Source: Tildeniella torsiva UHER 1998/13D (lineage in GTDB: Bacteria; Cyanobacteriota; Cyanobacteriia; Phormidesmidales; Phormidesmidaceae). From it: a stretch of DNA of 64,000 bases. The notes under the pieces were generated by a model, which saw only the letters and a program-made list of their open reading frames with translations, made no database searches and had not been told where the DNA came from. The stretch spans positions 434,001 through 498,000 of the forward strand of contig JAHHIH010000001.1 of assembly GCA_019358835.1 (NCBI GenBank). The letters are read 5' to 3'. Position numbers and translations under genes: made by a program. Of the stretch, positions 27,743-49,920 are shown in pieces; position 1 is the stretch's first letter, and every line of letters starts with the position of its first letter.

Positions 27743-28504
27743 ATGTCAAAAATTGTTTCAGTTCACTCCTACCGGGGTGGAACTGGCAAATCAAATACAA
27801 CGGCTAATCTGGCGGCGTCCATAGCCAGGCAGGGATGCCGCGTTGGCATTGTTGATACTGACATTCAGTCACCGGGCATTCATGCCCTATTTGGCTTTGA
27901 CGAAAATAATATTGAGCTCACACTAAACGATTTTCTTTGGGGACGATGCTCAATCACAGAGGCGGCCTACGATGTTTCTTGGGTGCTTCAGGATCTCGGT
28001 ATAAAACAGGGGAAGATTTACCTGATTCCCTCTAGCGTCAAGGCTGGAGATATCGCTGAGATTCTGAAGCAGGGCTATGATGTTGGAATGTTGCGGGAGG
28101 GTTTTCAGAATCTAATTGATGACCTAAATTTAGATTATTTGCTCATTGATACTCATCCCGGACTCAACGAAGAGACCCTGCTCTCAATTGCGATATCAGA
28201 CGTAGCCGTTCTCGTTTTGCGGCCCGACAAGCAAGATTATCAAGGGACGGCTATCACCGTTGATATTGCTCGAAAATTGGGAGTTGAAAAACTTTTTCTG
28301 GTGGTCAACAAAGCACCCTGCATCTTAAATTTTGATGACCTTAAAGAGCAAATTGAAAAAACCTACAATGCCACTGTAGCGGGGATACTGCCCCACTCAG
28401 ATGACATGATGTTCTTGGCGAGTAACGGCGTATTCGCCATCAAGTTTCCCGATCATTTGTATACGAGTATTGTGCGAGATATCACCGTCAAGGTGATGGC
28501 TTAA
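27743..28504 (+). CDS. MinD/ParA-like P-loop ATPase (copy 1)
   Basis: 253 aa from the ATG opening MSKIVSVHSY; the frame continues upstream to 27680 but an AAGGGTG site supports 27743. The deviant Walker A is RGGTGKS (about 11-17), with Arg where MinD/ParA have the signature Lys. VDTDIQSPG is switch I and LLIDTHPGLNEET switch II/Walker B. The C-terminus lacks the amphipathic membrane-targeting helix of true MinD. Such SIMIBI ATPases position or regulate large complexes. It is clearly paralogous to the ATPase at 40065-40826, which faces it from the far end of the cluster. It precedes the AGE-like gene and is probably its transcriptional neighbour. Confidence 0.9.
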   Translation: MSKIVSVHSYRGGTGKSNTTANLAASIARQGCRVGIVDTDIQSPGIHALFGFDENNIELTLNDFLWGRCSITEAAYDVSWVLQDLGIKQGKIYLIPSSVKAGDIAEILKQGYDVGMLREGFQNLIDDLNLDYLLIDTHPGLNEETLLSIAISDVAVLVLRPDKQDYQGTAITVDIARKLGVEKLFLVVNKAPCILNFDDLKEQIEKTYNATVAGILPHSDDMMFLASNGVFAIKFPDHLYTSIVRDITVKVMA

Positions 28505-28629
28505 GCGTTGAGCCAGCTTGCTGTTGAGCTGTTCGCACCTGTCCGAGCCTCGTATTACTTAAGTCGAGTGGAATGCTTGTTTGCATAGGTCTACAGAGTT
28601 AAGTCCCCCATTCCAAGGAGCAAGATTTC

Positions 28630-30453
28630 ATGACAGCAGTTGGCTTTTCATTCTCAGATACGATCGCAGGCTATGTAACTCAGTTTGACCGCCAGGAAAA
28701 GTGCTTTCAGGTCAAAACCTCCGACGGACGGGAGTACACCATTTACCTGACGGACACGGTCTATGGTCGAATTGCTCAGAACTTAAATGAACCGTACCTA
28801 GACTGCACCGGTCGCCTGGGAGAACTGCTAACCCCCGGTATTCACGTCTTTGCCTACGGTGTTTTTTATCCCCAGGGGGATGGGCACAAGTTTGAAGCTA
28901 AGGCCCTTGTGTTTCCAGGGGAGGCTCCCGACACCTATCGCCATGAAGAACCGGCCTGGTGGGTGAGCCAAATCACCTCAATTACCGACTGTTATTTGAA
29001 GTGGCAGTTCGGCTACCCCAACCAAGAAATTGACTACGCCAACTATCGCACCATGCTGCACCTGGCCGGGGCCAAACAGCAGGATGACTATTTGCAAGAA
29101 ACCGACACTATTTCTCGCATGGTCTACGGCATGGCATCGGCCTACCTGCTGACCGGGGAAGATCGCTTTTTGGAGGCGGCGGAAAAGGGCACCGAGTACC
29201 TGCGCGATCACATGCGCTTCTACGACCCCGACGAGGACTTGATCTACTGGTACCACGGGGTCAGGGTGACCGGCAATCGCGAGCAAAAGCTGCTGACCTC
29301 TGAGTTTGGCGATGACTACGACGCCATTCCGGCCTACGAGCAGATCTATGCCCTGGCTGGCCCCATTCAGACCTACCGCATCACAGGCGACCCTCGCATT
29401 CTGCGGGATGCCGAGATGACCGTCAGCCTGTTTGACAAGTTTTATATTGACACCGAGCAGGGGGGCTATTTCTCCCACCTCGACCCCCTGACCCTCGATC
29501 CCAAGGCCGAATCCCTCAAGTGGAACCAGGCGCGTAAGAACTGGAACTCCGTGGGCGACCACGCCCCGGCCTATCTAATTAACCTGTGGCTGGCGACGGG
29601 CGATCCCAAGTATGCCGACTTCCTGGAGTACACCTTTGACACCATCGTTAAGTACTTCCCCGACTACGACAACAGCCCCTTTGTGCAGGAGAAATTCTTT
29701 GAGGACTGGAGCCGTGATCAGGCCTGGGGCTGGCAGCAAAATCGGGCGGTGGTGGGCCACAACCTGAAGATTGCCTGGAACCTGATGCGCATGCAGTCGC
29801 TAAAGGCCAAGGATGACTACGTGGGGCTGGCCGAAAAGATTGCCCAGCTGATGCCGGATGTGGGCAGCGATCGCCAGCGGGGTGGCTGGTACGATGTGGT
29901 CGAGCGGGTGCTGGGCCCTGGAGACGAGCAGCATCGCTTTGTCTGGCACGATCGCAAAGCCTGGTGGCAGCAAGAGCAGGCTATCTTGGCCTACCTGATT
30001 TTGGCAGGTACCTTAGATAACCGCGAATATCTGCGCCACGCTCGCGAAGCGGCCGCCTTCTACAATGCCTTCTTCCTCGATCACGACGACGGGGCGATTT
30101 ACTTTAACGTGCTGGCCAACGGATTGCCCTACCTGCTGGGCACCGAGCGCTACAAGGGGTCGCACTCCATGAGCGCCTACCACTCCACCGAGCTGTGCTT
30201 CCTCAGCGTGGTCTACACCAACCTGCTGATCACCAAGCAGCCCCTCGACCTCTACTTCAAGCCCATGCCCGGTGGGTTCAAAGACAACATTTTGCGGGTT
30301 TCCCCCGACATTTTGCCCCCCGGCAGCATTCGCATCGGGGCCTGCTGGGTCAACGATGAACCCTACGAGCACTTCAACGCCGACGAGCTAACCGTCAAGC
30401 TCCCCGACACCCAAGAGCGGGTCAAAGTTAAGGTGCAGCTTCTGCCCACCTAA
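28630..30453 (+). CDS. AGE/N-acylglucosamine 2-epimerase-like protein
   Basis: 607 aa. Residues 1-115 form an N-terminal beta-rich domain (GREYTIYLTDTVYGRI). The remainder is an alpha/alpha-6 barrel of the AGE/cellobiose 2-epimerase superfamily with conserved pocket residues: WNSVGDHAPAYLINLW, VVGHNLKIAWNLMR (His), WWQQEQAILAYL and SHSMSAYHSTELCF (His pair). The matching gene in the Synechocystis icfG cluster is slr1855. It would epimerise or hydrolyse a sugar, but the substrate is unknown. It starts with AAGGAG upstream of the ATG and heads the STAS/GlgX/kinase/phosphatase series, so it is likely under the same control. Confidence 0.85.
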   Translation: MTAVGFSFSDTIAGYVTQFDRQEKCFQVKTSDGREYTIYLTDTVYGRIAQNLNEPYLDCTGRLGELLTPGIHVFAYGVFYPQGDGHKFEAKALVFPGEAPDTYRHEEPAWWVSQITSITDCYLKWQFGYPNQEIDYANYRTMLHLAGAKQQDDYLQETDTISRMVYGMASAYLLTGEDRFLEAAEKGTEYLRDHMRFYDPDEDLIYWYHGVRVTGNREQKLLTSEFGDDYDAIPAYEQIYALAGPIQTYRITGDPRILRDAEMTVSLFDKFYIDTEQGGYFSHLDPLTLDPKAESLKWNQARKNWNSVGDHAPAYLINLWLATGDPKYADFLEYTFDTIVKYFPDYDNSPFVQEKFFEDWSRDQAWGWQQNRAVVGHNLKIAWNLMRMQSLKAKDDYVGLAEKIAQLMPDVGSDRQRGGWYDVVERVLGPGDEQHRFVWHDRKAWWQQEQAILAYLILAGTLDNREYLRHAREAAAFYNAFFLDHDDGAIYFNVLANGLPYLLGTERYKGSHSMSAYHSTELCFLSVVYTNLLITKQPLDLYFKPMPGGFKDNILRVSPDILPPGSIRIGACWVNDEPYEHFNADELTVKLPDTQERVKVKVQLLPT

Positions 30454-30461
30454 GCTCTTTG

Positions 30462-30481
30462 GGGGCCGCTGCAGCGGCCCC
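30462..30481 (+). terminator. Perfect GC-rich palindrome between epimerase and STAS genes
   Basis: GGGGCCGCTGCAGCGGCCCC is a perfect 20-nt palindrome nine bases after the epimerase stop. It would form a very stable stem and probably attenuates read-through. No T-run follows. Confidence 0.5.
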
Positions 30482-30517
30482 TAGCCACCGCCCTCTCTGC
30501 CCCCTCTAAAATGCACC

Positions 30518-30889
30518 ATGGAACTTAAGCAGCAAATTCTAACGGCCACCGACCTCGACACCCAGGCCCCCACCCCCGTCACCTTGATTACTCTGGCGGG
30601 GGATATTGACGGCAGCACCGCCCCCAGTGTGCAAACCGACATCCTGGCCGCTGCCGCCCCTGACATCAAAATGATTTTAGAGATGACCCAGGTTTCCTAC
30701 ATGTCGAGTGCGGGCCTGCGGGTTTTGCTGGCGGTCTATCGCCAGGCGACGGCCCAAAATGGCCAGGTTGTCTTGGTCGGGCTGGTGGAAGAGATCAAAG
30801 ACACCATGAGTGTGACCGGGTTTCTAGATTTCTTTACCACCACCGACACTCTGAATGAGGCCTTTGCTGTGCTGAAGCTACAGCCATAA
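30518..30889 (+). CDS. STAS-domain anti-sigma-factor antagonist (copy 1, Slr1856-like)
   Basis: 123-aa single STAS domain. The phosphorylatable serine is Ser64 in YMSSAGLRVLL, the conserved S-A/S-G-L-R-V motif of SpoIIAA/RsbV. LITLAGDIDGSTAPSV marks the first strands. In partner switching an unphosphorylated STAS protein binds the RsbW-like kinase and frees the kinase's other target; phosphorylation by the kinase ends this, and a PP2C phosphatase resets it. In Synechocystis the homologue Slr1856 is a substrate of the IcfG phosphatase. The gene lies between the AGE-like and glgX genes, as in that cluster. Confidence 0.92.
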   Translation: MELKQQILTATDLDTQAPTPVTLITLAGDIDGSTAPSVQTDILAAAAPDIKMILEMTQVSYMSSAGLRVLLAVYRQATAQNGQVVLVGLVEEIKDTMSVTGFLDFFTTTDTLNEAFAVLKLQP

Positions 30890-31001
30890 ACGATCCGGCG
30901 ATCACCAGGTTTGCCGTGCCAAGTCCGGCTTGAGATTTATCGTTTCCTACCGGCAAACCGCCAACTCTAGACCTGGATTTGGTTTATTTTCAGGAGCACC
31001 C

Positions 31002-33119
31002 ATGGACCGTATTGATATCCACCCGACCCACACCTTTGGGGACTACAAGCTGCGCTGCGGTCGCCCGCTGCCCTTTGGGACAACGCTGGTGCCAGGGGGG
31101 GTGAATTTCTCCATCTATTCCAGCTATGCTACCGACTGCACCCTGGTGCTCTTCCAAAAGCACCAGAAAGAACCCGTGGCCGAAATTCCCTTCCCCGATG
31201 AATTTCGCATTGGGGATGTCTGGACGATGACCGTCTTCAACCTCGACTACGAGACGGTAGAGTACGGCTATCGCATGGATGGCCCCTTGGATATTCAGGC
31301 GGGTCACTGGTTTAATACCGACAAGATTTTAATGGATCCCTACGCCAAAATCATTGGCGGACGCGATATCTGGGGAGAAGAGCCCGACTGGAGTGACCCG
31401 TACCAGCACCGCTCGCGGCTGTCCTTTGATGACTTCGATTGGGAGAGCGATCGCCCGCTGGAAGTACCGCCCGAAGATCAGATCATCTATGAGATGCATG
31501 TGCGAGGGTTTACGCGCCACCCCTCCTCTGAGGTGAAGGAAAATCATCGCGGCACCTTTGCGGGCATTCGGGCCAAGATTCCCTACCTCAAGGAGCTGGG
31601 GGTCAACGCCATTGAGCTGATGCCGGTGTTTGAGTTTGACGAGTTTGAGAACTCCCGCCGCCACCCCGAAACCGGCGACCTGCTGATGAACTACTGGGGC
31701 TACAGCACTGTCGGCTTCTTTGCCCCCAAGGCGGGCTATGCCGCCACCGGCAAGTTTGGCATGCAGGTCGATGAGCTGAAATCTCTGGTCAAAGAGCTGC
31801 ACAAAAACGGCATTGAAGTGATTTTAGACGTGGTGTTTAACCACACCGCCGAGGGCAATGAAAATGGCCCCTACATTTCCTACCGGGGGCTCGACAACAA
31901 AACCTACTACATGCTCACCCCAGAAGGGTACTACTTCAACTTCAGCGGCTGCGGCAATACCCTTAACTGCAACAACCCGGTGGTGCGCAACCTGGTGCTC
32001 GACTGCCTGCGGTTTTGGGCGGCGGAGTACCACATCGACGGGTTTCGCTTTGACCTGGCCTCGATCTTGGGCCGCGACCCCTGGGGGGCACCCCTGGCCA
32101 ACCCACCTCTGCTAGAGGCCCTGGCCTTTGACCCAATTTTGGCCCGCTGCAAGCTAATTGCCGAAGCCTGGGATGCGGGGGGGCTGTATCAGGTGGGCTC
32201 CTTTCCGGCCTACGGCCGCTGGGCCGAGTGGAATGGCAAGTACCGCGACGGCATTCGCAAGTTTCTCAAGGGCGACGCGGGCCGGGTAGGGGATATGGCC
32301 CAGCGCTTGCAGGGCTCCCCCGACCTCTATGCCTGGGCGGGGCGAGGCCCCGCCACGTCAATTAACTTCATCACCGCCCACGATGGCTTTACCCTGGCGG
32401 ATTTGGTGTCGTATAACGACAAGCACAACGCCGCCAACGGGGAGTACAACAACGACGGCGGCAACGACAACGATAGCTGGAACTGCGGGGCAGAGGGCTG
32501 GACTGACGACCCCGGCATTAACGCCCTGCGCCAGCGACAGATGCGCAATGCGATCGCCATTCTAATGCTGAGCCAGGGCGTGCCCATGCTGCTGATGGGC
32601 GACGAATTGGGCCGCAGCCAAAATGGCAACAACAACACCTACTGCCACGACAACGAGCTGAACTGGCTGGACTGGAACCTAGTAGAGACTAATCAGGACT
32701 TATTTAAGTTTGTCAGCCACTGCATCCATTTTCGCCGGGCTCACCCCGCCCTGCGCAGCCGCTACCATCTGCAAAACCGAGACTACGTCGGCAGCGGCTA
32801 TGCCGATATCACCTGGCACGGCACCCAGGCCTGGAATGCCGACTGGTCTGAAGGCAGCCGCGCCCTGGCCTTTATGCTCTGCGGCAAGCACGCCAAGTCG
32901 GGCACCGCCGAGGATGACTACCTCTACGTGGCGATCAACATGCACTGGCAAACCCAGTGGTTTGAGCTGCCGGGGCTGCCGACGGGCATGCAGTGGCACA
33001 GCGCCATCAATACAGGGGCCGACCTCGACCATTTTGACCTGGGTAAAGAGCCGGTGCTCGACCCCCAGCAGGGGCTGCTGGTGCGCGATCGCTCCGTTGT
33101 GGTGCTCGTAGGCCGCTAG
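31002..33119 (+). CDS. glgX: Glycogen debranching enzyme GlgX (GH13 isoamylase)
   Basis: 705 aa from the ATG with CAGGAG upstream; the frame to 30930 adds unconserved residues. An N-terminal CBM48 domain (about 18-120; VPGGVNFSIYSSYATDC) is followed by the GH13 barrel with DVVFNH, GFRFDLAS (nucleophile Asp), LIAEAWDA (acid/base Glu) and TAHDGF. The insert FNFSGCGNTLNCNNPVV is typical of GlgX/TreX debranching enzymes. It hydrolyses alpha-1,6 branches of glycogen so stored glucan can be used. Its place inside a partner-switching cluster matches slr1857 of Synechocystis, the isoamylase next to icfG. Confidence 0.95.
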   Translation: MDRIDIHPTHTFGDYKLRCGRPLPFGTTLVPGGVNFSIYSSYATDCTLVLFQKHQKEPVAEIPFPDEFRIGDVWTMTVFNLDYETVEYGYRMDGPLDIQAGHWFNTDKILMDPYAKIIGGRDIWGEEPDWSDPYQHRSRLSFDDFDWESDRPLEVPPEDQIIYEMHVRGFTRHPSSEVKENHRGTFAGIRAKIPYLKELGVNAIELMPVFEFDEFENSRRHPETGDLLMNYWGYSTVGFFAPKAGYAATGKFGMQVDELKSLVKELHKNGIEVILDVVFNHTAEGNENGPYISYRGLDNKTYYMLTPEGYYFNFSGCGNTLNCNNPVVRNLVLDCLRFWAAEYHIDGFRFDLASILGRDPWGAPLANPPLLEALAFDPILARCKLIAEAWDAGGLYQVGSFPAYGRWAEWNGKYRDGIRKFLKGDAGRVGDMAQRLQGSPDLYAWAGRGPATSINFITAHDGFTLADLVSYNDKHNAANGEYNNDGGNDNDSWNCGAEGWTDDPGINALRQRQMRNAIAILMLSQGVPMLLMGDELGRSQNGNNNTYCHDNELNWLDWNLVETNQDLFKFVSHCIHFRRAHPALRSRYHLQNRDYVGSGYADITWHGTQAWNADWSEGSRALAFMLCGKHAKSGTAEDDYLYVAINMHWQTQWFELPGLPTGMQWHSAINTGADLDHFDLGKEPVLDPQQGLLVRDRSVVVLVGR

Positions 33120-33220
33120 GGCTGACTAGCTCAATCTAGGTTAACGCTTGCCCCATTCCAGGTTTCTCTTCCGTCGTTCCCGTCTGCAATTTGTTGTTCA
33201 TTCATAACCCATTACCGATT

Positions 33221-33550
33221 ATGTCTTTTACCGCCGCTACCGAAATTGACAACGCCATCGCCACGATTACCCTAACCGGCGATCTCGATGCCTCATCGGC
33301 CCCAGTCTTTCGCGAGCAGATCGATATTGCCGCCCAGGCTAGCCCAAAACGGATTGTTTTAATGGCTAGCGGGCTAGACTACATGGCCAGTGCCGGGCTC
33401 CGGGTGCTGGTCTTTGCCAACCAAAAACTTGGCACCGATGTTGACATCTATCTGGTCGCCCCCCAAGAACTCGTTTTAGAGACGCTGCAAAAGACCGGCT
33501 TCGATCAAAGCGTGATTATCGTGGACGACTACGACACCGCAATTGCCTAA
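33221..33550 (+). CDS. STAS-domain anti-sigma-factor antagonist (copy 2, Slr1859-like)
   Basis: 109-aa single STAS domain; ATG 33221 is preferred over an upstream in-frame codon at 33191. The phospho-acceptor is Ser57 in YMASAGLRVLV. ITLTGDLDASSAPVF marks the first strands. It differs clearly from copy 1 at 30518-30889, so the two are old paralogues that may bind the same kinase with different affinity or respond to different signals. The next gene, 29 bp away, encodes the RsbW-like kinase, and the phosphatase follows. Confidence 0.92.
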   Translation: MSFTAATEIDNAIATITLTGDLDASSAPVFREQIDIAAQASPKRIVLMASGLDYMASAGLRVLVFANQKLGTDVDIYLVAPQELVLETLQKTGFDQSVIIVDDYDTAIA

Positions 33551-33579
33551 TCGGTCTTAACGATATGGGGTATTGAGTC

Positions 33580-33999
33580 ATGGAACAGTTAACGGTCCCT
33601 GGAGAGCTAGCCTCCCTCAAGCTGATTGCTGAGTTTGTGCTAGCTGAGGCGTCTAAGGTTGGTCTAGATAAAAAAGCATCCTATCGACTGCGGCTGGCCA
33701 TTGATGAAATTGCCACCAACATCATTCTCTACGGCTTCCACGAATCGGCCCAAAAAGGGGATCTGCACCTGTCTGCCACCACAGACAATAGTAAACTCGA
33801 AATTGCAATTGAAGATAGCGCGATCCCCTTCGACCCGATCAATGCTAGACAGGTAGAAGCGACCGAGCTAGAGCGCCCCCTAGAAGAGCGACAGGTGGGC
33901 GGGTTGGGAGTGTATCTGGCCATTCAGGGGGTTGACCAATTTCGCTACGAGCGAGTGAGCGATCGCAACCGCAACATCTTTGTGATGAATTTGGCCTGA
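33580..33999 (+). CDS. RsbW-like anti-sigma factor/serine kinase
   Basis: 139-aa HATPase_c protein. The N-box LRLAIDEIATNIILYG (about 38-53) has the catalytic Glu and the Mg-binding Asn; the G2 box is GGLGVYLAIQ. The G1 region reads EDSAIPFDP instead of the common D-x-G-x-x-F, a mild departure. It should phosphorylate the two STAS proteins and bind either them or a second target. In Synechocystis the equivalent is Slr1861. No sigma factor is in the window, so the target controlled by the switch is not evident; it may be a sigma factor elsewhere, or an enzyme or ATPase of this block. Confidence 0.9.
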   Translation: MEQLTVPGELASLKLIAEFVLAEASKVGLDKKASYRLRLAIDEIATNIILYGFHESAQKGDLHLSATTDNSKLEIAIEDSAIPFDPINARQVEATELERPLEERQVGGLGVYLAIQGVDQFRYERVSDRNRNIFVMNLA

Positions 34000-34042
34000 C
34001 CCCATCTATATCACCCACTGGCTCACCCCCCGGAGGACACCC

Positions 34043-35500
34043 TTGACTGAAGCCTGGCAGGAACAGATGGCGACGATCGAGCGCCAAAACGCCCTCATGC
34101 GTCAGGCCCTTGATCTAGGGGCCAGCATCGCCACCGAAAACGACTTTAACGCCGTCCTTGAGAAAATTGTGACCGGAGCCAGGGCGCTGACCCAGGCTGA
34201 CGCCGGGGTTTTATTTCTCAAAAAAGCCACCGACCAAGGCGATATCTTAGTCTATGCCTACCTTCAGGCGGACTCCCTCCAGCTCAACCTCAACCTCATC
34301 CAAAATCCCCACCAGCTCACCCAGCTCGCCCCCGTTATTCTCCGAGACAATCTAGACAACCCTTCCGCCCTGGCCGCTCGATCTGCCCTGACTTTAGCCC
34401 CCGTGCAGATTGCTGATTTGAGCCAGGCCTCTACAGAATGGGAGTGCGATCGCGACTTTGATCAAGCCCTAGGGTACGAGTCCCGCGCCTGTTTAGTGCT
34501 GCCCCTGAGGGGCCACGATCAATCGTTAATGGGGGTAATTAAGCTGATCAACCCTACCCCCACCGACAATCTCAATCCCTTTGATTTAGCCGTCGATGAA
34601 GTCATGGGGGGATTCCTCACCCTAGCTGGCAGCAAGCTCCAGTACAAGCTGGCCTACCAAGCCCAGGCCAGCTGGATTAAGCAAGAGCGTGAGCTTCAGA
34701 TCGGCCGCCAAATCCAGCTCGATTTTCTACCCGAAAACCTGCCGCAGGTCAAAGGTTGGGAAATCGCCGCCAAGTTTTGCCCCGCCCGAGAAGTTGCCGG
34801 AGACTTTTACGACTCTTTTATTATCGGTCAAGGGCGCGTCGGCATTGTCATCGCCGATGTCTGTGATAAGGGGGTCGGTGCCGCCCTATTTATGTCGCTC
34901 TTTCGAAGCCTGCTGCGAATTTTGAGCCAGCAAAACTACTCCCTGAGTTTACTGGACGAAATTACCGGCCCGGCTAAATCTGAAACGGCCAAAAGCAGAC
35001 TGTCGCGGCTGCCGAGTATTGGCACCCAAGCCCTCAAGAATGCGATCGAGCGCACCAACATCTACATTGCCGAAAATCACTATCGCACCAACATGTTTGC
35101 CACTATTTTCTTTGGCATTCTTGACCCGGCCACAGGCAAATTAATTTACATCAACGGCGGGCACGAGGCTCCCTTTATCTGCAATGCTCAAGGCATTAAA
35201 CAACGGCTTAAACCCACCGGCCCAGCGGTAGGGGTATTTCCCAAAGCAAATTTCAATATTGAATTGACCCAGTTGGAACCCGGAGATTTATTTCTAGGCT
35301 TTACCGATGGCGTCCCCGATGCACGAAACCCTGAGGGAAAGCTCTATTCAGAAGCGGCACTACAACAATTAATTGAGTCAGCCCCTATTACATCGGCAGT
35401 TGAGCTAATCGATCGTATCGATACCGCTGTGCACGCCCATATTGCAGGTATCGATCCCTTCGATGACATAACGCTGATTTCAGTGTATTACCAGACTTAG
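34043..35500 (+). CDS. icfG: GAF-SpoIIE/PP2C serine phosphatase, IcfG-like
   Basis: 485 aa. TTG 34043 with GGAGG upstream is the start. A GAF sensor domain (about 35-170) and a short helical linker (about 200-228) lead into a PPM/SpoIIE phosphatase domain (about 235-485). The metal-binding aspartates are visible in VAGDFYD (Asp254), ADVCDKG (Asp272), TDGVPDAR (Asp422) and FDDITL (Asp474-475). It dephosphorylates STAS proteins and so resets the partner switch. Synechocystis IcfG (Slr1860), which is needed for growth on glucose at low inorganic carbon, is the functional model. The GAF ligand is unknown. The symbol is assigned from gene order and domain content. Confidence 0.9.
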   Translation: MTEAWQEQMATIERQNALMRQALDLGASIATENDFNAVLEKIVTGARALTQADAGVLFLKKATDQGDILVYAYLQADSLQLNLNLIQNPHQLTQLAPVILRDNLDNPSALAARSALTLAPVQIADLSQASTEWECDRDFDQALGYESRACLVLPLRGHDQSLMGVIKLINPTPTDNLNPFDLAVDEVMGGFLTLAGSKLQYKLAYQAQASWIKQERELQIGRQIQLDFLPENLPQVKGWEIAAKFCPAREVAGDFYDSFIIGQGRVGIVIADVCDKGVGAALFMSLFRSLLRILSQQNYSLSLLDEITGPAKSETAKSRLSRLPSIGTQALKNAIERTNIYIAENHYRTNMFATIFFGILDPATGKLIYINGGHEAPFICNAQGIKQRLKPTGPAVGVFPKANFNIELTQLEPGDLFLGFTDGVPDARNPEGKLYSEAALQQLIESAPITSAVELIDRIDTAVHAHIAGIDPFDDITLISVYYQT

Positions 35501-35869
35501 CCACCGCATTCCCTAACGTACTACAAAGCTCTAATAGTTCTAACGATAGCCATTTAACCAGCATCACTGCCCTGTTCTTCATGATTTTGAAGGATAGAGC
35601 CATTTAATTAAATCTGGCCATTACCCCCTACAAGCCTTGCTGGACTGGAGATAAGCAATGATTGGCTTAGAAGATTGCCTTATAGCGATCGCTGGGTGGA
35701 TAAGATACGATACTCATGGAGTAATATTCGCTGAATAGTAACCATTACTTCATGATGCAGCGACGAGACAGACTCTATTGACTTCCGGAAACAGGCTGTC
35801 GATACGCAGGAACTCTACCTACCAGAAGGGCGGCCAAAGGAGCAAAATCGGAACTATGGAGACTGCGCA
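35501..35869. promoter_or_regulatory. Gene-free stretch with candidate promoter for kamA
   Basis: No gene is visible in this 369-bp stretch. A candidate promoter has TTGACT at 35778-35783, a 17-nt spacer and GATACG at 35801-35806, 64 nt before the kamA start. It suggests that kamA and the following genes form a separate transcript from the icfG-like core. Confidence 0.35.
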
Positions 35870-36988
35870 ATGAAGTGGGATGAGGTTGTAGACACCGATT
35901 GGAATAACTGGCACTGGCAGCTTAAGAATCGGGTAAGTTCTGTAGAAGATCTGTCTCAAATTGTTCAGCTTACCCCCGAAGAACTGACAGGGCTAACGGC
36001 TAAAGACCGCTTTCGAGTAGACATTACGCCTTATTTTGCCCAACTCATAGATCCGCTAGATCCCAACTGCCCCATCCGCCGTCAGGTCATTCCCCTCGGG
36101 CAAGAGCTCCAGGGCTTTGACGGCATGATGGCTGACAGCCTGGCAGAAGACGCGCAAAGTCCTGTCCCCGGTCTTGTCCACCGCTATCCAGACCGGGTGC
36201 TCATGGTCGTGACCACCCACTGCGCCAGCTACTGCCGCTATTGCACCCGCAGCCGCATGGTCGGGGAATGGGATAAAACCCCCACCACCGCTGATTTTGA
36301 ACGGCAGCTCGACTATTTGAGGCGCAATCCCTGTATCCGCGACGTCTTAATCAGCGGTGGCGATCCGCTGACGCTTTCAGATACGGCGCTTCGTTACCTG
36401 CTGGGTCAATTGAGGGCAATCGAGCATATCGAAATTATTCGCATCGGCACTCGGGTTCCTATCTTTCTACCCCAGCGCATTACCCCAGATCTATGCAACA
36501 TACTGAAAAAGTTCCATCCCCTATGGATCAACATTCACACCAATCACCCCAAAGAAATCACGGCTGAAGTCAGCCAATCCCTGACTCGCCTGGCCAACGC
36601 TGGCATTCCCTTGGGCAATCAAAGTGTGCTTTTAGCTGGCATTAACGACAGCGCCAATATTCAACAACAACTTGTTCATGCTCTAGTAAAAAATCGAGTA
36701 CGACCCTACTATCTCTATCAGTGCGATTTGGTAGAAGGCTCCGGGCACTTCCGTACTTCCATTGCCAAAGGGCTCGAGATTATCGAACAGCTCCAGGGAT
36801 ATACGAGTGGGTACGCCGTGCCTAAATACGTCATCGACGCTCCGGGGGGTGGCGGAAAAGTTGTTGTTACACCCCAAACTCTACTAGGTCGAGCAGCCGA
36901 CGCAGGGCAAGGAGTTCTGCTTCGAACCTACAAGGGCGAAATTGCTACCTACTACGAACCCCCCGACTATGTTGGATTAAGCAGTTAA
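35870..36988 (+). CDS. kamA: Lysine 2,3-aminomutase (KamA family radical SAM enzyme)
   Basis: 372-aa PLP-dependent radical SAM enzyme converting L-lysine to beta-lysine. The [4Fe-4S]/SAM motif is CASYCRYC (Cys118, Cys122, Cys125). Lys330 in GGGGKVVVTP is the expected PLP lysine; Asp286 and Asp323 match, at a constant offset of 7, the lysine-side-chain-binding Asp293 and Asp330 of the clostridial enzyme, in which Lys337 binds PLP. These residues support true lysine specificity over EpmB-type activity. No beta-lysine acetyltransferase (ablB) is beside it, so the fate of beta-lysine is open. GGAG lies upstream of the ATG. Confidence 0.9.
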   Translation: MKWDEVVDTDWNNWHWQLKNRVSSVEDLSQIVQLTPEELTGLTAKDRFRVDITPYFAQLIDPLDPNCPIRRQVIPLGQELQGFDGMMADSLAEDAQSPVPGLVHRYPDRVLMVVTTHCASYCRYCTRSRMVGEWDKTPTTADFERQLDYLRRNPCIRDVLISGGDPLTLSDTALRYLLGQLRAIEHIEIIRIGTRVPIFLPQRITPDLCNILKKFHPLWINIHTNHPKEITAEVSQSLTRLANAGIPLGNQSVLLAGINDSANIQQQLVHALVKNRVRPYYLYQCDLVEGSGHFRTSIAKGLEIIEQLQGYTSGYAVPKYVIDAPGGGGKVVVTPQTLLGRAADAGQGVLLRTYKGEIATYYEPPDYVGLSS

Positions 36989-37075
36989 ATAGAACGCATA
37001 CCCTAGGTTGACCTCAACAGTCTCAACTTTTATAACTCTACCCCGTCCATCTTTTTGCCTTTCCCTATTGTATCT

Positions 37076-38419
37076 ATGTCACTAAGCCCCAGCCATCATG
37101 CTAACAAGGCCAGATTAACTACGCTGTTGGGGTTACTTTTGCTCGGCAATGCCTTCGCTCAAAAGCTGTCAGAGATTGTCTCTGTCAGCAGCTTTCTGAG
37201 CAATGTCGGCGTCAACCAAATCATTTGGGTTTGGATGGTAGACGGCTTGCTAATGCTTTTAATGACCAGCCTACAGTCCTTGATTATCGATCGCCATAGT
37301 CGCCTCAAAATCATGGAATATATGGTTTTGGCATTAGCGCTATCCTTCGTACTGCTACAAGCCCTACTGCTATTGAATAGCCCAGCCTGGTTCAGCCAAT
37401 CTTTACTATATATACTTTCCCAGCAACAGTGGCTAACCTTTCCTCTAATATTCTGGGTGTTCACTAGCGATCTTTTAGGTATAGCCCAAGCAAAACAGTT
37501 GATTCCTAAAATTGCTAGCTGGGGTTTTGCAGGCTACGCCCTTGGAATTGCCTTTGTTGGCTTCACCTCTTTATTGATGAAGCGACTAGACATCCCTTAC
37601 GCCGCAATGGTTTCTGGCTGTTTAGCTATTAATATCGGCATCTATATAGGCATTTTTTTAATGCTACGACTCAGTTTTTCGCGCCATAAAATTCGCCCGG
37701 CAGTCTATGTTGCCGAGCCAATCAAAGAAACCCTTATAGAAGGCTGGGATTTTGTTAGAGGCGTGGCCTTATTTCGCTATCTTGTGATTGCAGTTTTGTC
37801 GATCGTCATTTGTGAAACTATTGTTGACTTTCGTTTTTTTCAGGCTTCTTTCGAAGCTTTTCCCGACCTGTACACCTACCAGATGGTGCAAAGTGTTTAC
37901 CTATTTGGCAGAGCAGTTGTCGAAGGCATTGTTAGCCAGTTTGCAGCTCAAGCAATCGTAATCCGACTTGGTCTTAAAGCTGTTTTTATAATTCAGCCTA
38001 TATTTTCCCTCGTCGCTACCACTATAATGATCGCAGCACCTACCTTCTTAGGTAGCTTAGTGGGCGTCTTTTTCCAGAAGGGTGCACAATATGGCATTGA
38101 CGAGCCCGCTCGCAAGGCTCTAGAAGGCATGGTTCCCCAAGAGCGGCGAGGGCGTGTCAGCAACTTCATTGACGGTTACATGCTTGGCATAGGTGGAATT
38201 TTAGGGGCACTAGTCATTGCGCTATTTTTAGCTGTAGGAAAAACAATAGAGATAAATTTACTAGGCACCAATTTGTATTTGTTTGGAGCATTGGCAGCGG
38301 CTTTGATTGCACTGATATCGACATGGAAAATGTATCAGGTATACGATGCTAGCATGCTTGACTGGCGGCTAAATCGACGCAAGCGGGGGGATACTATTTT
38401 AGATAGTCTTGATTTTTAA
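37076..38419 (+). CDS. Npt1/NTT- or MFS-like membrane transporter
   Basis: 447 aa with 10-12 predicted membrane helices and short loops. The first helix (TLLGLLLLGNAFAQKLSEIV), the long central helices and the conserved late segment KGAQYGIDEPARKALEGMVPQERRGRVSNFIDG resemble cyanobacterial proteins annotated as Npt1/Npt2-type nucleotide transporters or MFS. The R-K/E motif and RRGRV loop are typical of that class. The real substrate is unknown; ATP/ADP exchange is established only for plastid and intracellular-parasite relatives. ATG 37076 is preferred over 37055 (TTG). It lies between kamA and the HAMP sensor gene, AT-richer than glgX. Confidence 0.7.
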   Translation: MSLSPSHHANKARLTTLLGLLLLGNAFAQKLSEIVSVSSFLSNVGVNQIIWVWMVDGLLMLLMTSLQSLIIDRHSRLKIMEYMVLALALSFVLLQALLLLNSPAWFSQSLLYILSQQQWLTFPLIFWVFTSDLLGIAQAKQLIPKIASWGFAGYALGIAFVGFTSLLMKRLDIPYAAMVSGCLAINIGIYIGIFLMLRLSFSRHKIRPAVYVAEPIKETLIEGWDFVRGVALFRYLVIAVLSIVICETIVDFRFFQASFEAFPDLYTYQMVQSVYLFGRAVVEGIVSQFAAQAIVIRLGLKAVFIIQPIFSLVATTIMIAAPTFLGSLVGVFFQKGAQYGIDEPARKALEGMVPQERRGRVSNFIDGYMLGIGGILGALVIALFLAVGKTIEINLLGTNLYLFGALAAALIALISTWKMYQVYDASMLDWRLNRRKRGDTILDSLDF

Positions 38420-38438
38420 TAAGGAGTTTCTGATACCC

Positions 38439-39521
38439 ATGGAACAAACAGCCGCGCCAAAATATTCTGTTTTGCTCTACAAAATTTTGGGGAAACGAGT
38501 AAGATTTATTAGCATTAAAGCAAAGCTGTTGATTATCTTCACGCTTCTGTTTACAGGTGTTTTTGGGACGCTCTTTTTTCTCTTTTACAGCTTTGCCATA
38601 AACTTAGCTGTAGAGCATATGCGGGAGGATCTTGAGGATGCCCTTACAGCCGCATCTAAGGGAATGGATGCAGAAGATGTTCTCCAACTTTATCGACAGG
38701 GGGAACCCAATGCCGCAGGTTTTTCTGATAGCCCTCTTTACAGAGAACAAATAAGGTGGTTTCAACAAGTCCATGACATCAATCCAGATGTATGGCTTTA
38801 CTCCTTTGTCCGAGGTGATCAGCTAGATACCCGTCGTAACGGTGAGCCAGTTGTTACCAACAATGAGGTGATTTTTATCGCCGATATTTGGTCCCAGTAT
38901 AATCCCGCTAAATCTGTTAAATTTCTTGAGCCCTATGGTGCTAGTCCCCAAATGATAGAGTCCCTAGATAAAGGGATATTAGTCCATCGCCCTGAGGTTC
39001 CTCTATACGATAAATGGGGTGGATGGATGACAGCTTACGCTCCTTTACGGAATGAGCAAGGGCAAATTGTTCCTGGTGTTGGCATTGGTGCAGACTTAAC
39101 CGCAGAATATTTAGGTGTTATCAAAAGCGGCATTTTGAGGCGAATGATAATTACATTTGTGATTTTTTACATTCTTCTGTTTGTGCTAATTTATATTGCG
39201 TCGGAAAGGTTTACTCGCCCTACAATTAACCTCGCTCAGGCTGCCGGTGAGATTGGGGAAGGCAACTATAATCACGACTTGTCGAATCTCCCAAGATCGT
39301 TGATTGAAGATGAGATTACTCAATTGGCCGATGTCTTTAGAGGGATGGTTGAAAAAGTTCGCACTAGGGAACTAAAGTTGAAGCAGCAAGTTTCTGAGTT
39401 GCGAATTGAGATTGATGAGAAAAGACGCCTGGAAGAAGTAAAAGAAATTACCGACAATGATTTCTTTAAAGAACTCATTGAGAAGGCTAAAACAATTCGT
39501 CACCGGTATCAAGAAGAATAG
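38439..39521 (+). CDS. Membrane sensor with extracytoplasmic domain and HAMP, no output domain
   Basis: 360 aa from the ATG preceded by AAGGAG. TM1 (about 28-50) and TM2 (about 240-262) enclose a 190-residue extracytoplasmic sensor with PLRNEQGQIVPGVGIGADLTAEY, a Cache/PAS-type strand pattern. HAMP (about 262-320; FTRPTINLAQAAGEIGEGNYN) ends in a coiled coil (RELKLKQQVSELRIEIDEKRRLEE). No kinase, cyclase or methyl-accepting part follows, so it must signal through a partner. The phosphatase encoded upstream has its own GAF input. It may act on the MinD-like ATPase or the SET protein encoded next to it; that is inference. Confidence 0.8.
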   Translation: MEQTAAPKYSVLLYKILGKRVRFISIKAKLLIIFTLLFTGVFGTLFFLFYSFAINLAVEHMREDLEDALTAASKGMDAEDVLQLYRQGEPNAAGFSDSPLYREQIRWFQQVHDINPDVWLYSFVRGDQLDTRRNGEPVVTNNEVIFIADIWSQYNPAKSVKFLEPYGASPQMIESLDKGILVHRPEVPLYDKWGGWMTAYAPLRNEQGQIVPGVGIGADLTAEYLGVIKSGILRRMIITFVIFYILLFVLIYIASERFTRPTINLAQAAGEIGEGNYNHDLSNLPRSLIEDEITQLADVFRGMVEKVRTRELKLKQQVSELRIEIDEKRRLEEVKEITDNDFFKELIEKAKTIRHRYQEE

Positions 39522-39582
39522 CTATTCAAAATCTCTGTCTGCTCTATCGCTCATCAAAAATGCACGTGATCAATCAAGCCTC

Positions 39583-40038
39583 ATGCCTAATTCATCTAAC
39601 CCATCTCCAAAAAATTCTGGAGATCTTTCCACAAGTAAGCTTGAACATTTGATCGATAATGCACCCAAATGTCGCCCAGGCGAAAGCCAGATTCACGGCT
39701 ATGGGCTGATCGCTTTTGAGGTGATTAAAGAGGGTGAAATAGTGATTGATTTTAACGATCCCAACCTTTACACCGAGAAAAAATTTTCCGATCTAGAACC
39801 TTGGCGATTAGAGGGTGGAAAATATACTGGAATTAGTGAGGAGAAATGCCTGGTCTCAGAGGCATTTACCAAATATTCTTTACTAAATCACTCACGGCAA
39901 CCAAACGCAGTCAGTAACTTTAAAGCTCGGCATATTGTTGCCATCAGAGATATTTTTCCTGGGGAAGAAGTAACAGTTGATTACAGACTAGAGCCAGTAT
40001 CGCCCGAAGCCAAGACGCATATTCAACACTTCCTTTAG
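39583..40038 (+). CDS. SET-domain protein (putative protein lysine methyltransferase)
   Basis: 151 aa from the ATG opening MPNSSNPSPKN; an in-frame ATG at 39457 overlaps the previous gene and is less likely. The SET core shows HGYGLIAFEVIKEGEIVIDF (38-57), the SAM/catalytic motif LLNHSRQPNA (100-109) and GEEVTVDY (127-134), the three signatures of SET lysine methyltransferases. No pre- or post-SET cysteines are present, as in most bacterial members. The substrate is unknown; the overlap of this region with the end of the HAMP sensor gene suggests co-translation and a linked role. Methylation of a cluster protein is speculation. Confidence 0.8.
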   Translation: MPNSSNPSPKNSGDLSTSKLEHLIDNAPKCRPGESQIHGYGLIAFEVIKEGEIVIDFNDPNLYTEKKFSDLEPWRLEGGKYTGISEEKCLVSEAFTKYSLLNHSRQPNAVSNFKARHIVAIRDIFPGEEVTVDYRLEPVSPEAKTHIQHFL

Positions 40039-40064
40039 TATTTTTGCCTGCGGCTTTTAGCCGA

Positions 40065-40826
40065 TTAACTCAGTATAGTGTCAACTACCCCTTCTAAAAT
40101 CTTGGTAACAGGATGATCAGGATATTGAATGGCAAACACAGTACTGCTAGCCAAGATCATCATATCGTCGGAATGAGGAATTACCCCAGCGACATGGGCA
40201 CCGTAGGTAGCTTCTACTTTTCTCTTTAATTCATCAAAATCAAAAATGTCCGGCGACTTATTAACAACTATTAATAGCCTCTCTACCTGTAGTTTACGAG
40301 CGACGTCAACAGTTACAGCAGTACCCTGATAATCTTGCTGGTCAGGTCTCAAGATAAGCACCAAGATGTTAGAAACCGTAATTGAGAGTAAGGTTTCCTC
40401 GTTCAATCCTGGATGAGTATCAATAATTAAATAGTCTAGCTGAAAATCTTTAATGACTTTCTTATAGCCATCATTCAAACGATTAACATCGTACCCTTCC
40501 CTAAGGACTCGCGCTATATCGCTTGTTTTTATGCTAGATGGGATAAGAAATAATTTTCCTGAATTGTTGTGGGTAACTGGCAGAATTTTAGAAACATCGT
40601 AAACAGCGTCTTTGATGTCGATCTTACCCCAGAGGTAATCGTTCAGAGAAAGCTTGATACTCTCTTTGCCAAAACCAAAAAGGACATGAACTCCAGGTGA
40701 TTGAATATCGGTATCAACAACCGCAACTCGATTGCCTTTTCGAGCTAAAATAACAGCCAAATTAGAAACAGTATTAGATTTCCCGGTACCGCCCCGGTAA
40801 GAGTGTACTGATATAATCTTAGACAT
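40065..40826 (-). CDS. MinD/ParA-like P-loop ATPase (copy 2)
   Basis: 253 aa, transcribed toward the SET gene (convergent). It is clearly more than half identical to the ATPase at 27743-28504, with the same deviant Walker A RGGTGKS carrying Arg at the signature Lys position, VDTDIQSPG, LIIDTHPGLNEET and LRPDQQDYQGTA. It also lacks an amphipathic C-terminal helix. Its copy-1 partner lies at the other end of the 13-kb icfG-like block. The two ATPases could form homo- or heterodimers. It is AT-rich compared with the GlgX gene. The stop is 26 bp from the SET gene stop. Confidence 0.9.
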   Translation of the reverse strand: MSKIISVHSYRGGTGKSNTVSNLAVILARKGNRVAVVDTDIQSPGVHVLFGFGKESIKLSLNDYLWGKIDIKDAVYDVSKILPVTHNNSGKLFLIPSSIKTSDIARVLREGYDVNRLNDGYKKVIKDFQLDYLIIDTHPGLNEETLLSITVSNILVLILRPDQQDYQGTAVTVDVARKLQVERLLIVVNKSPDIFDFDELKRKVEATYGAHVAGVIPHSDDMMILASSTVFAIQYPDHPVTKILEGVVDTILS

Positions 40827-40887
40827 ACTGTTACCTTATAATGCCGCTACAGCCAAAGACTGCCCAATTTGAGCACATAGTATAGGC

Positions 40888-40919
40888 AGGTTTGCAATAG
40901 CGCTTACTATCGCAAACCT
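40888..40919 (-). terminator. 13-bp stem hairpin between fusion-oxidoreductase and MinD-like genes
   Basis: AGGTTTGCAATAG (40888-40900) pairs with CTATCGCAAACCT (40907-40919) at 12 of 13 positions with a 6-nt loop. It lies between two same-strand genes, so it may terminate the upstream oxidoreductase transcript or attenuate the ATPase gene. No T-run is present. Confidence 0.45.
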
Positions 40920-40948
40920 AGCATATAATTTTGCAGACTGTTTGTATA

Positions 40949-44687: not shown

Positions 44688-44822
44688 CCGCGATGCGGCT
44701 TGCTTCTTCTGTGAGTAGCTGCGGTTTAACGAGCAGGTATGGAGGCCATTAAAGGCGATCGCACAATACCCCGCGATCGCCTATCCAGTCAACCACAGTT
44801 AGCCTTTGAGCACACAAAAACT

Positions 44823-46529: not shown

Positions 46530-46541
46530 TCGGTCGCTGTC

Positions 46542-46560
46542 GGGTGGGCAGTGCCCACCC
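46542..46560. repeat. Palindromic repeat, left copy
   Basis: GGGTGGGCAGTGCCCACCC is a perfect palindrome with 9-bp arms and a one-base centre. Nearly the same element occurs at 56783-56799. This GGGTGGGCA-TGCCCACC unit is a dispersed repeat seen widely in cyanobacteria. Here the two copies lie just outside the NTF2-fold array. Confidence 0.7.
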
Positions 46561-46612
46561 TTGAGTTCTGTTGTCATACCTCAAACCCCGTTATCTGTAC
46601 TGGAGCAAACCC

Positions 46613-47053: not shown

Positions 47054-47096
47054 GAAAGGGAACATCAGATGTTGAGGAAATTCTCGATGCTGCTGG

Positions 47097-47159
47097 GTGG
47101 ATGGTCAGCTTGCCGAAATCTCGGTCAACCACAATGACCTTGGCTTAATCGAGCAGCTT
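47097..47159 (+). pseudogene. 3-prime remnant of a SnoaL gene
   Basis: The frame reads VDGQLAEISVNHNDLGLIEQ, matching the end of the second SnoaL domain at 49921-50907 (VSGQITQIWVNANDLGLLEQ) at about 13 of 21 positions. There is no in-frame start with upstream homology, and no stop at the family's usual end; the frame runs on into the next gene. A decayed fragment. Confidence 0.6.
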
Positions 47160-47196
47160 TGTAGTGTTTGTATACCGTTAGATTTGGAGACTTTAA

Positions 47197-47742: not shown

Positions 47743-47773
47743 TCGTCAATGCACACTTGAGAGGTCAAACACT

Positions 47774-49666: not shown

Positions 49667-49674
49667 GAGACAGC

Positions 49675-49764: not shown

Positions 49765-49920
49765 GTTTCTACTGTTATCACAAGTCAATTTTTATCACGA
49801 CATAGGGTTATTCAAGAATGAGAATTCAAAAACAGTATAACAACTAGTCAAGAAGCAATTTCTTAACGGTTACGAGGTATGGTCTGCCGCCACAATTTTT
49901 GCAATTAGGAAAAGAGAACT

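Follow-up and report, generated by a model that had tools for sequence, protein, structure and literature searches.

The gene block examined here, positions 27743 to 40826 of a 64,000-nucleotide stretch of cyanobacterial DNA (the window), raises the question of how the carbon-linked phosphorylation switch icfG relates to the MinD-like ATPases, the transporter and the membrane sensor encoded beside it. In our analysis chance does not account for the genes that accompany the icfG core, and the region as a whole is best explained, with somewhat more confidence than doubt, as two signalling units that have been joined, a sensor-ATPase module and an icfG partner switch.

The icfG core and the genes that flank it

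All open reading frames were confirmed in the window at the positions first assigned to them, with names backed by Pfam and NCBIfam; starts given below as "about" are chosen ATG codons within longer open frames. The core runs contiguously on the forward strand in the icfG-type order: an AGE-family (GlcNAc 2-epimerase-like) protein (28630..30453), the anti-sigma-antagonist-like protein STAS1 with the motif YMSSAGLR (30518..30889), a GlgX-type glycogen debranching enzyme (about 31002..33119, frame open from 30930), STAS2 with YMASAGLR (about 33221..33550, open from 33191), an RsbW/SpoIIAB-type kinase with an HATPase_c_2 domain (33580..33999) and an IcfG-type GAF-SpoIIE phosphatase (34043..35500). 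The gene order is identical in four further loci (L177, L178, L214, L215), while L181 differs by the lack of a called STAS2, and the AGE protein is 61-85% identical to those of icfG clusters in other genomes. The motif check found the SAGLR serine in both STAS proteins and the N-box in RsbW; four of the five SpoIIE motifs of IcfG were recovered by pattern search, and FDDIT of the fifth was read in the sequence. These motifs represent the phosphorylatable serine of STAS proteins, the N-box of the kinase and the acidic residues of SpoIIE phosphatases. Profiles, gene order and motifs agree in assigning the core to the icfG type, as initially annotated. The accompanying argument that the lack of a sigma factor gene points to a local target does not follow, and we reject it on the case of Synechocystis, where Slr1861, the kinase of the icfG operon, is an anti-sigma factor of SigC whose antagonist, Ssr1600, is encoded away from the operon (PMC12329169).

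Upstream of the core lies MinD_A (27743..28504, forward strand). Downstream, also on the forward strand, follow a KamA-family radical-SAM aminomutase (35870..36988), a recurrent neighbour of MinD, NTT and HAMP genes, an NTT-like transporter (about 37076..38419), a Cache-like/TM/HAMP sensor (38439..39521) and a SET-domain protein (about 39583..40038, open from 39457); MinD_B (40065..40826) closes the block on the reverse strand. The GC content amounts to 39.5-45.4% in MinD_A, NTT, HAMP, SET and MinD_B and to 51.9-58.9% from AGE to KamA, so that the block looks composite. Promoter and terminator signals did not exceed those of shuffled sequences (11 and 15 found against 17.9 and 18.1 expected). 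KamA falls short of the AblA lysine 2,3-aminomutase model TIGR03820 (502.2 bits against 525.4) and passes the broader KamA subfamily model TIGR00238. In the same-genus genome G012 (L084) the succession KamA-NTT-HAMP-SET-MinD_B occurs where IcfG was not found, which argues that these genes form a unit of their own and not, as first proposed, an extension of the switch.

The transporter has no match in Pfam, the TLC family included, or in NCBIfam. Its predicted fold (AlphaFold model) is closest to the ATP/ADP translocators AtNTT1 and Chlamydia NTT1, with a Foldseek E of 1.6e-8 and a TMq of 0.74 to AtNTT1, and the designation "NTT-like" holds by this fold; it differs from the translocators in its low identity (about 14%) and in a conserved basic C-terminal end (xLLxWRLxRRxR...LDxxF). 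TLC (PF03219) was matched by three of 133 proteins scanned as ATPase neighbours, drawn from the 138 dereplicated proteins that are encoded on the same strand no more than 1.5 kb away in loci L001-L117, once those with X or longer than 1000 residues had been excluded.

Both MinD-like proteins carry an AAA_31/ParA/CbiA profile and a P-loop, which places them in the ParA/MinD superfamily, and both stay far below the cut-off of the septum-site MinD equivalog TIGR01968 (59 and 47 bits against 212.9). MinD_B has a ParA-like match in PHROGs, and its PDB sequence search returned general ParA/MinD-type entries only. Unlike in known ParA/MinD proteins, the signature lysine of the deviant Walker A motif (KGGxxK[ST]) is missing from both, which read HSYRGGTGKSN, and the pattern HS[FY]RGGTGKSN, with arginine in its place, recurs in 158 of 172 family members counted over overlapping, non-random loci. 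Judged by this motif, the HS[YF]RGGTGKSN ATPases are a sub-family of their own. As the initial annotation had noted, closely related ATPases (62% identical) do stand at both ends; in the tree, however, MinD_B clusters with same-genus proteins and MinD_A falls in a clade that includes proteins adjoining KamA in other genomes, so that the two are not sisters and therefore represent separate paralogues. The trees rule out a local duplication of one MinD gene, and the bracketing as such finds no support, not being seen elsewhere; in Elainella two MinD-like genes both lie downstream of IcfG. As a lead only, a short IWxxL motif was observed that terminates small winged-helix-like proteins and PrsW proteins adjoining the ATPase. 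It occurs in 61 of 870 open reading frames near the ATPase gene and, within these loci, in 17 of 1163 at a greater distance; many of the proteins matched are related to one another, and some matches are plainly due to chance.

A conserved sensor tail and its pairing with the ATPase

The sensor scores 24.2 bits with the HAMP profile, just below the Pfam cut-off of 25, and has a weak SiaA match in NCBIfam; PHROGs returned families of unknown function, and a PDB sequence search gave no match at E<=0.1. It had been described as output-less. We reject this description, since the protein ends in a conserved C-terminal tail that is shared by many sensor types. The tail, about 49 residues long (residues 309-357, 39363..39509 on the forward strand, DFFKELIEKAKTIRHRY), is predicted to consist of the end of a long helix, a break and an amphipathic basic C-terminal helix. 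It is the best-conserved part of the sensor, holding 12 of the 17 invariant columns in an alignment of 14 homologues, and in 84 of 113 tail-bearing open reading frames no more than 15 residues separate its end from the C-terminus. These 113, like the 172 ATPases, were counted over loci some of which overlap and are not unbiased samples: L001-L117 and L120 were picked by ATPase matches, and L118, L119, L121-L140 and L170-L209 include loci picked for NTT, IcfG, tail or fusion. A domain scan of 66 of 67 dereplicated tail proteins (one 122-residue fragment was excluded) showed the bearers to be of HAMP, PAS, Cache, GAF, CHASE2, receiver and cNMP-binding type. The 25 commonest of their 50 families include neither a histidine-kinase ATPase domain nor a GGDEF or SpoIIE domain.

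With few exceptions the tail and the ATPase are found in the same genomes. Across 194 cyanobacterial genomes, 79 have both, four the tail only, two the ATPase only and 109 neither, so that one partner stands alone in six; within the window's own family the match is exact, with both present in 14 of 20 genomes and neither in the other six. The coupling recurs in a second group, the class to which the Anaerolineales genome G219 belongs: 20 of 150 genomes give the tail and 20 the ATPase, 18 being common to both lists, and four hold a single partner. On plasmids the tail was matched in four of 72,556 records, all four among the 13 with this MinD-like ATPase. The adjacency figures rest on the matches listed, 150 tails and 123 ATPase genes, the genome counts being taken from the full positive lists: for 56 of these 150 tails an ATPase gene lies no more than 8 kb from the start of the tail, against about 0.8 expected if genomes measure 5.5 Mb, and 94 have none at that distance. 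Moreover, three chains in two genomes, with domains checked in one chain, join HisKA-like, REC, HAMP-like, tail and MinD segments; one such fusion lies at L190:6582-8828. The tail-only profile confirmed the tail in two of these fusions and found it degenerate in the third, the fusion tails being less typical. Unlike stand-alone tail proteins, the fusions do carry MinD after the tail. A weaker tail-like HAMP protein was also observed near the NTT gene (L180) of genome G089, which has NTT and no A1 tail match.

From these sequence comparisons we infer that the tail would be the output of the sensor and would dock on the MinD-like ATPase, which it probably regulates.

Linkage of the ATPase to icfG-type switches

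IcfG is rare in the genus, occurring in one of 26 genomes; at E<=1e-60 it was not found in the other 25. In the set of 194 cyanobacterial genomes, MinD lies within 15 kb in four of 16 icfG loci and is absent from that distance in 12, some of them on short contigs. The presence of icfG and ATPase in the same cyanobacterial genome (8 of 14) hardly exceeds the 5.8 expected by our own arithmetic. Contiguous same-strand runs of icfG genes and MinD nevertheless occur in Cyanobacteria (L177 of genome G196, and L181 of Elainella), Deinococcota and Actinomycetota, and the ATPases linked to icfG are not monophyletic in the tree. All seven plasmid matches of IcfG are on MinD-bearing records, six directly adjoining MinD. 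A Deinococcus plasmid displays the run AGE-STAS-GlgX-STAS-RsbW-SpoIIE followed by MinD, a small protein, a tail sensor, a second MinD-like gene, NTT, a hypothetical protein, SET and another tail sensor, its SET having no detectable similarity to that of the window. The MinD that IcfG adjoins on five Streptomyces plasmids is divergent (about 40%), and these plasmid records, of which two stretches were read, gave no tail match; in the two plasmids read, GlgE- and GlgB-type genes follow MinD, which strengthens the suggested glycogen link. Other partner switches adjoin tail and MinD as well (L187, L071).

The ATPase and the icfG switch are linked in the genome, and we infer that one may control the other. 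The initial annotation had staked the association on its reappearance near icfG-type genes elsewhere, and since it recurs in other genomes and phyla it is not refuted on that ground. Overall, its icfG core, the recurrent MinD link and the glycogen link stand; the output-less sensor, the bracketing and the sigma argument do not.

From sensor to switch: a proposed model and its relation to known systems

Given the gene content, the conservation of the tail, its co-occurrence, adjacency and fusion with the ATPase and the recurrent icfG-ATPase linkage observed here, the reading that we consider somewhat favoured is that a signal passes from the sensor tail to the MinD-like ATPase and on to the icfG switch. 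One unit would comprise the Cache/HAMP membrane sensor with the tail as its output, the HS[YF]RGGTGKSN ATPase and the NTT-like transporter, joined in this locus by KamA and SET. By analogy with the short basic peptides that ParB, MinE and PomX present to their ATPases, the tail may be a docking and regulating segment for the ATPase, placed at the sensor end where a kinase or cyclase normally stands; a ligand, on binding, would alter the coiled coil and thereby the nucleotide and membrane state of the ATPase. In the other unit, RsbW would phosphorylate the STAS proteins and IcfG would dephosphorylate them, GlgX and AGE possibly linking the switch to glycogen or sugar metabolism. The ATPase would most likely pass the state of the sensor to the switch, for instance by binding one of its proteins (IcfG, RsbW or STAS) or by determining where that protein is placed; the physical docking, the regulation, the direction of the signal and any target within the switch are all conditional in this scheme.

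It is doubtful, in our view, that the ATPase serves positioning and not signalling, clustering sensors and transporter in the membrane with the tail as a luggage tag. ParA/MinD ATPases mostly place cargo via short partner peptides (PMC10241942, PMC7993993), TlpT/PpfA being named for a chemoreceptor cluster in the PomX paper (PMC7993993), and the C-terminal end of NTT is also strongly conserved. The tail, however, ends Cache, PAS, GAF, CHASE2 and receiver sensors at the place of an output domain, with none of the three output domains named above among their 25 commonest families, and a tail-ATPase fusion suits regulation better than the transport of one cargo. Far less probable is a generic signalling-helix coiled coil whose coupling to the ATPase would mirror nothing more than common ancestry or genome size. 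Parallel coiled coils of the S-helix type are frequent in sensors (PMC1592074), and prediction places the first part of the tail within a long helix, but S-helices stand almost always between two domains (PMC1592074) and the tail is mostly terminal. This idea is largely contradicted by the co-occurrence, with tail matches in only 4 of 113 cyanobacterial genomes lacking the ATPase, an exact match through several absences within one family, repetition in the Anaerolineales-type class, and genomes of 2.4-2.8 Mb with both partners beside some of 5-6 Mb with neither.

We likewise regard as rather unlikely that two unrelated units were joined by horizontal transfer and do not communicate. The rarity of IcfG in the genus, the module without IcfG in G012, the 12 icfG loci without a near ATPase, the differing GC content and the occurrence of both units on plasmids would fit such a history; the contiguous same-strand association in three phyla, with ATPases that are not one clade, argues against it. 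Beyond this locus, we give about an even chance to a new class of bacterial signal transduction, in which diverse sensors (Cache-HAMP, PAS, GAF, CHASE2, receiver) would act through one C-terminal tail on a MinD-like ATPase and thence on effectors encoded nearby, such as icfG/RsbU/Sia-type switches, NTT-like or SulP-type transporters, PrsW-type proteins and cyclases. No description of the tail-ATPase pair or cluster was recognised in open-licence PMC titles and abstracts, and such signalling appears to be undescribed so far. Annotations leave many sensors without an output and many MinD/ParA ATPases as orphans; the pairing tail, which reaches Cyanobacteria, Chloroflexota, Deinococcota and some records labelled Proteobacteria, would give a function to both, and an ATPase encoded beside the switch may be an input route for the icfG carbon switch.

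Several known systems share part of this arrangement. We take slr1855 to be the AGE-like gene of the Synechocystis icfG cluster. In PCC 6803 the cluster (slr1856-slr1861) likewise combines two STAS proteins, an isoamylase, an RsbW/SpoIIAB-type kinase and the IcfG phosphatase, and the available part of its description makes no mention of a MinD link (PMC12329169). The window differs by its MinD-like ATPases, NTT, tail-bearing HAMP sensor, KamA and SET, and, as judged from slr numbers, by a kinase gene that stands before the phosphatase gene. SiaABCD/RsbU-type switches also unite a HAMP sensor, a SpoIIE phosphatase and a kinase, and L187 (PAS-tail, MinD, SpoIIE and a DUF6272 protein, presumably SiaB-like) compares with SiaABCD; here, unlike in those switches, sensor and phosphatase are two distinct proteins, and a MinD-like ATPase gene lies between their genes.

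With the proteins that activate ParA/MinD ATPases (MinE, ParB, PomX, McdB) the tail shares a short basic segment, in its predicted amphipathic last helix, and co-occurrence with one MinD/ParA-type ATPase (PMC7993993, PMC10241942). It differs in being C-terminal and not N-terminal, in following a long helix and in being carried by many kinds of sensor. Finally, signalling-type domains or chemoreceptors are tied to a ParA/MinD ATPase in two further systems. In TadZ/CpaE a receiver-like domain is fused to a MinD-like ATPase. TlpT/PpfA concerns a chemoreceptor cluster (PMC7993993). Both serve the placement of pili or chemoreceptors; here, one and the same tail is common to REC-HAMP-tail-MinD chains and to stand-alone sensors.

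Two units in one gene block

All the genes of the initial annotation are found between positions 27743 and 40826 of the window, within a host genome of 5.84 Mb, and their family assignments agree with Pfam and NCBIfam. The plus-strand order is MinD_A (27743-28504), AGE, STAS1, GlgX, STAS2, an RsbW-type kinase, a GAF-SpoIIE phosphatase (IcfG), KamA, an NTT-like transporter, a HAMP sensor (38439-39521) and SET, after which the MinD-like ATPase gene MinD_B (40065-40826, minus strand) lies convergent to them; its closest named matches are from Phormidium FACHB-1136 and a Nodosilinea, which marks the window as cyanobacterial. Directly upstream of MinD_B, on the same strand, 40949-42664 encodes a cyclic-nucleotide-binding domain fused to a thioredoxin-reductase-like flavoprotein. 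The NTT-like transporter has no Pfam match, and its AlphaFold model (mean pLDDT 85) finds plant and chlamydial ATP/ADP translocators as closest PDB folds. For the HAMP protein, the predicted structure is that of a membrane protein in which an outer domain and HAMP are followed by a long helix, a break and a final helix (341-359); Foldseek places a WalK model and Cache-type sensor domains of chemoreceptors and kinases first.

The block had been described as one extended icfG locus. Our results show instead a composite of two units, not one old operon, because IcfG is rare in the genus, the KamA-to-MinD_B unit stands without it and GC content splits the block. Particularly, of 57 genomes searched, among them 26 from the same genus (counting that of the window), just two gave an IcfG match at E<=1e-60, the window's own and a distant one. 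KamA-NTT-HAMP-SET-MinD_B keeps its order and orientation in the same-genus genome G012 (locus L084, 63-79% identity), where IcfG was not found at that threshold; in genome G002 (L118) KamA-NTT-HAMP-SET runs to the contig end, with a transporter lacking its middle part (about residues 196-289). GC content is 39.5-45.4% in MinD_A, NTT, HAMP, SET and MinD_B and 51.9-58.9% from AGE through KamA. Across 36000-44000 the value is 42-48%, lower than the window's overall 54%. Apart from the window itself, a SET gene similar to its own was seen with the module in just G012 and G002, and KamA is a repeated module neighbour (L004, L005, L007, L019, L085, L089).

Downstream genes at 43836-60608 (ThiJ 43836, TPP enzyme 44739, GMC oxidoreductase 52114, DJ-1/PfpI 56115, glyoxalase-like 56848, LtrA 59364) have counterparts around icfG clusters of Streptomyces and/or Deinococcus plasmids, with identities of, for example, 69% and 61-62% (DJ-1), 54% (TPP) and 56% (ThiJ). 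The icfG core may travel within a much larger cassette.

A sensor tail and a co-occurring ATPase

The HAMP sensor ends in a conserved tail of about 49 residues (39363-39509; consensus of 36 sequences xRExxLxxQVxxLxIEIDxxKRxxQVAEITxTDYFQxLxxKAxxxRxxx), within which fall 12 of the 17 invariant columns of 14 HAMP homologues. Proteins of widely differing architecture carry it: among 66 dereplicated tail proteins, Pfam profiles include HAMP (39), PAS (16), dCache (14), GAF (6), receiver (5), cNMP-binding (5), CHASE2 (4) and HisKA (4). Histidine-kinase ATPase, GGDEF and SpoIIE are absent from the 25 commonest of their 50 families, in which a protein kinase and an AAA_16 domain each occur once. Of 113 tail ORFs matched by the profile in fetched loci, 84 end within 15 residues of the tail, 19, mainly CHASE2-type, extend 61-150 residues past it and 4 extend more than 150.

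The ATPase family has a ParA/MinD-type P-loop in which arginine replaces the signature lysine, with HS[FY]RGGTGKSN in 158 of 172 members (98 and 60). MinD_A and MinD_B do not reach the NCBIfam MinD cut-offs, and the solved relatives found by a PDB sequence search with MinD_B (archaeal MinD, Soj and others) are all distant. The two window proteins are 62% identical, yet fall in different tree clades.

Tail (E<=1e-5) and MinD_B (E<=1e-40) searches of the same 194 cyanobacterial genomes give 83 and 81 positives: 79 with both, four with the tail only (G042, G100, G113, G184), two with the ATPase only (G074, G215) and 109 with neither (Fisher p 1e-46, kinship ignored). Kinship by itself does not account for this pairing: of the 20 genomes in the window's own family, 14 are positive in both searches and the remaining 6 in neither. 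Among 150 genomes from the class to which G219 belongs (the genome with Anaerolineales locus L036), tail and ATPase each occur in 20, with 18 common to both (tail only G319, G389; ATPase only G339, G346). By comparison, 8 of 14 IcfG genomes carry the ATPase against 5.8 expected. The NTT behaves as a module member, as 12 of 13 NTT genomes hold both partners. Among the listed matches, 56 of 150 tails begin no farther than 8 kb from a listed ATPase gene (about 0.8 expected), the other 94 not being near one, and 50 of 123 ATPase genes have a tail within that distance. The tail is present in 25 of 26 genomes (Chloroflexi and others) reached via ATPase-bearing loci, a count that is not independent of that choice. 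In a set of 72,556 plasmid records, 4 match the window tail, and all 4 belong to the 13 ATPase-bearing ones; in fetched stretches the tail profile adds a CHASE2-annotated protein of the Nostoc NIES-3756 plasmid, and on a Rhizobium jaguaris plasmid (L213:6567-7004) an unannotated ORF ending in the tail abuts the ATPase gene.

Three proteins from two genomes (L190, L191, L192) join HisKA-like, receiver, HAMP-like, tail and MinD parts in a single chain (domains from a Pfam scan of the first). The tail-only profile detects the tail in L190 and L191; that of L192 is degenerate, as only the longer HAMP-plus-tail profile matches. Although the fusion tails are not the most typical, these fusions are the strongest argument that sequence offers for a direct partnership. 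A SulP-type transporter with STAS and cNMP-binding domains (L190:4360-6591) adjoins the fused gene.

Other neighbours of ATPase genes include winged-helix-like small proteins and PrsW proteins with a frequent IWxxL-type C-terminal motif (L030-L077, L115, L116, L135, L173, L177, L208, L212:7909-8256), possibly a second docking motif; no such ending was seen in the listed small ORFs near MinD_A. Peptide natural-product (RiPP/NHLP) genes lie nearby on Nostoc C057 and Pseudanabaena plasmids (L210, L211), and in L046 and L069 the gene is followed by a protein of great length (1274 and 1165 residues) that includes an NTT-like part.

Linkage to icfG-type switches

The ATPase lies within 15 kb of icfG in 4 of 16 cyanobacterial icfG loci, against about 0.1 by chance in our own reckoning: the window, Elainella (L181; AGE-STAS-GlgX-RsbW-IcfG-MinD-NTT-HAMP with tail-KamA-MinD), G196 (L177; AGE-STAS-GlgX-STAS-RsbW-IcfG-MinD-tail sensor) and G156 (L178). 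The remaining 12 are without it within that distance, some on short contigs (G133, 11.9 kb). An Elainella MinD-like paralogue (L181:10039-11145) reads RAGTGQSN, with Q replacing the P-loop lysine, and carries a C-terminal extension of winged-helix appearance ending in NLWDL; it is likely inactive as an ATPase, near an intact one.

Plasmids give seven IcfG matches, aligned over the SpoIIE half of the query, and every one is on a record that also bears the ATPase. Six directly adjoin the ATPase gene, five of them in Streptomyces and one in Deinococcus sp. KNUC1210; the remaining record, Nostoc NIES-3756, has a split cluster in which MinD comes after GlgX. The Deinococcus plasmid carries, all on one strand, AGE, STAS, GlgX, STAS, an unannotated RsbW reading frame, SpoIIE and MinD, then a small protein, a tail sensor, a second MinD-like gene, NTT, a hypothetical, SET and a second tail sensor; its SET has no detectable similarity to that of the window, and the 28 kb examined hold no KamA match. 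Of the five Streptomyces plasmids, two were read through, and both show the entire AGE-to-MinD order, with GlgE- and GlgB-type genes 3' of MinD. Since no tail was detected on these five plasmids bearing IcfG and ATPase, either the Streptomyces tail is on the chromosome or this branch works otherwise.

Partner switches also stand beside tail and ATPase in L187 (PAS-tail, MinD, SpoIIE and a DUF6272 protein) and L071 (tail sensor, MinD, SpoIIE and RsbW, with STAS upstream). In a tree with some poorly supported branches, the ATPases linked to icfG are spread over more than one clade, so the pairing may have more than one origin.

Proposed working and known systems

A short basic peptide of known ParA/MinD partners activates the ATPase (PMC7993993, PMC10241942). 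The sensor tail closes in a basic amphipathic helix with an arginine that does not vary among 14 homologues. In this regard, the sensor would signal by exposing or masking this last helix to the ATPase, which, as a first guess, might act on the icfG switch through binding or localisation of IcfG, RsbW or a STAS protein. The main rival reading is that the ATPase positions the sensors instead of signalling. Counting against the proposal are the undetected tail on the five Streptomyces plasmids, the majority of cyanobacterial icfG loci with no ATPase close by and the 94 of 150 listed tails away from an ATPase gene.

The missing sigma gene had been taken as a hint of a local target. Its absence says little, because in Synechocystis Slr1861, the kinase of the icfG operon, acts as an anti-SigC factor, and its antagonist, Ssr1600, is encoded away from the operon (PMC12329169). 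Among the titles and abstracts listed by our searches of the open-licence literature, we recognised no description of a tail, ATPase and partner switch combined. The parts are of known kinds, namely a partner switch and a ParA/MinD ATPase with a partner peptide; what appears new is their combination, a common C-terminal tail on many sensor types with one ATPase family, repeatedly beside partner switches.
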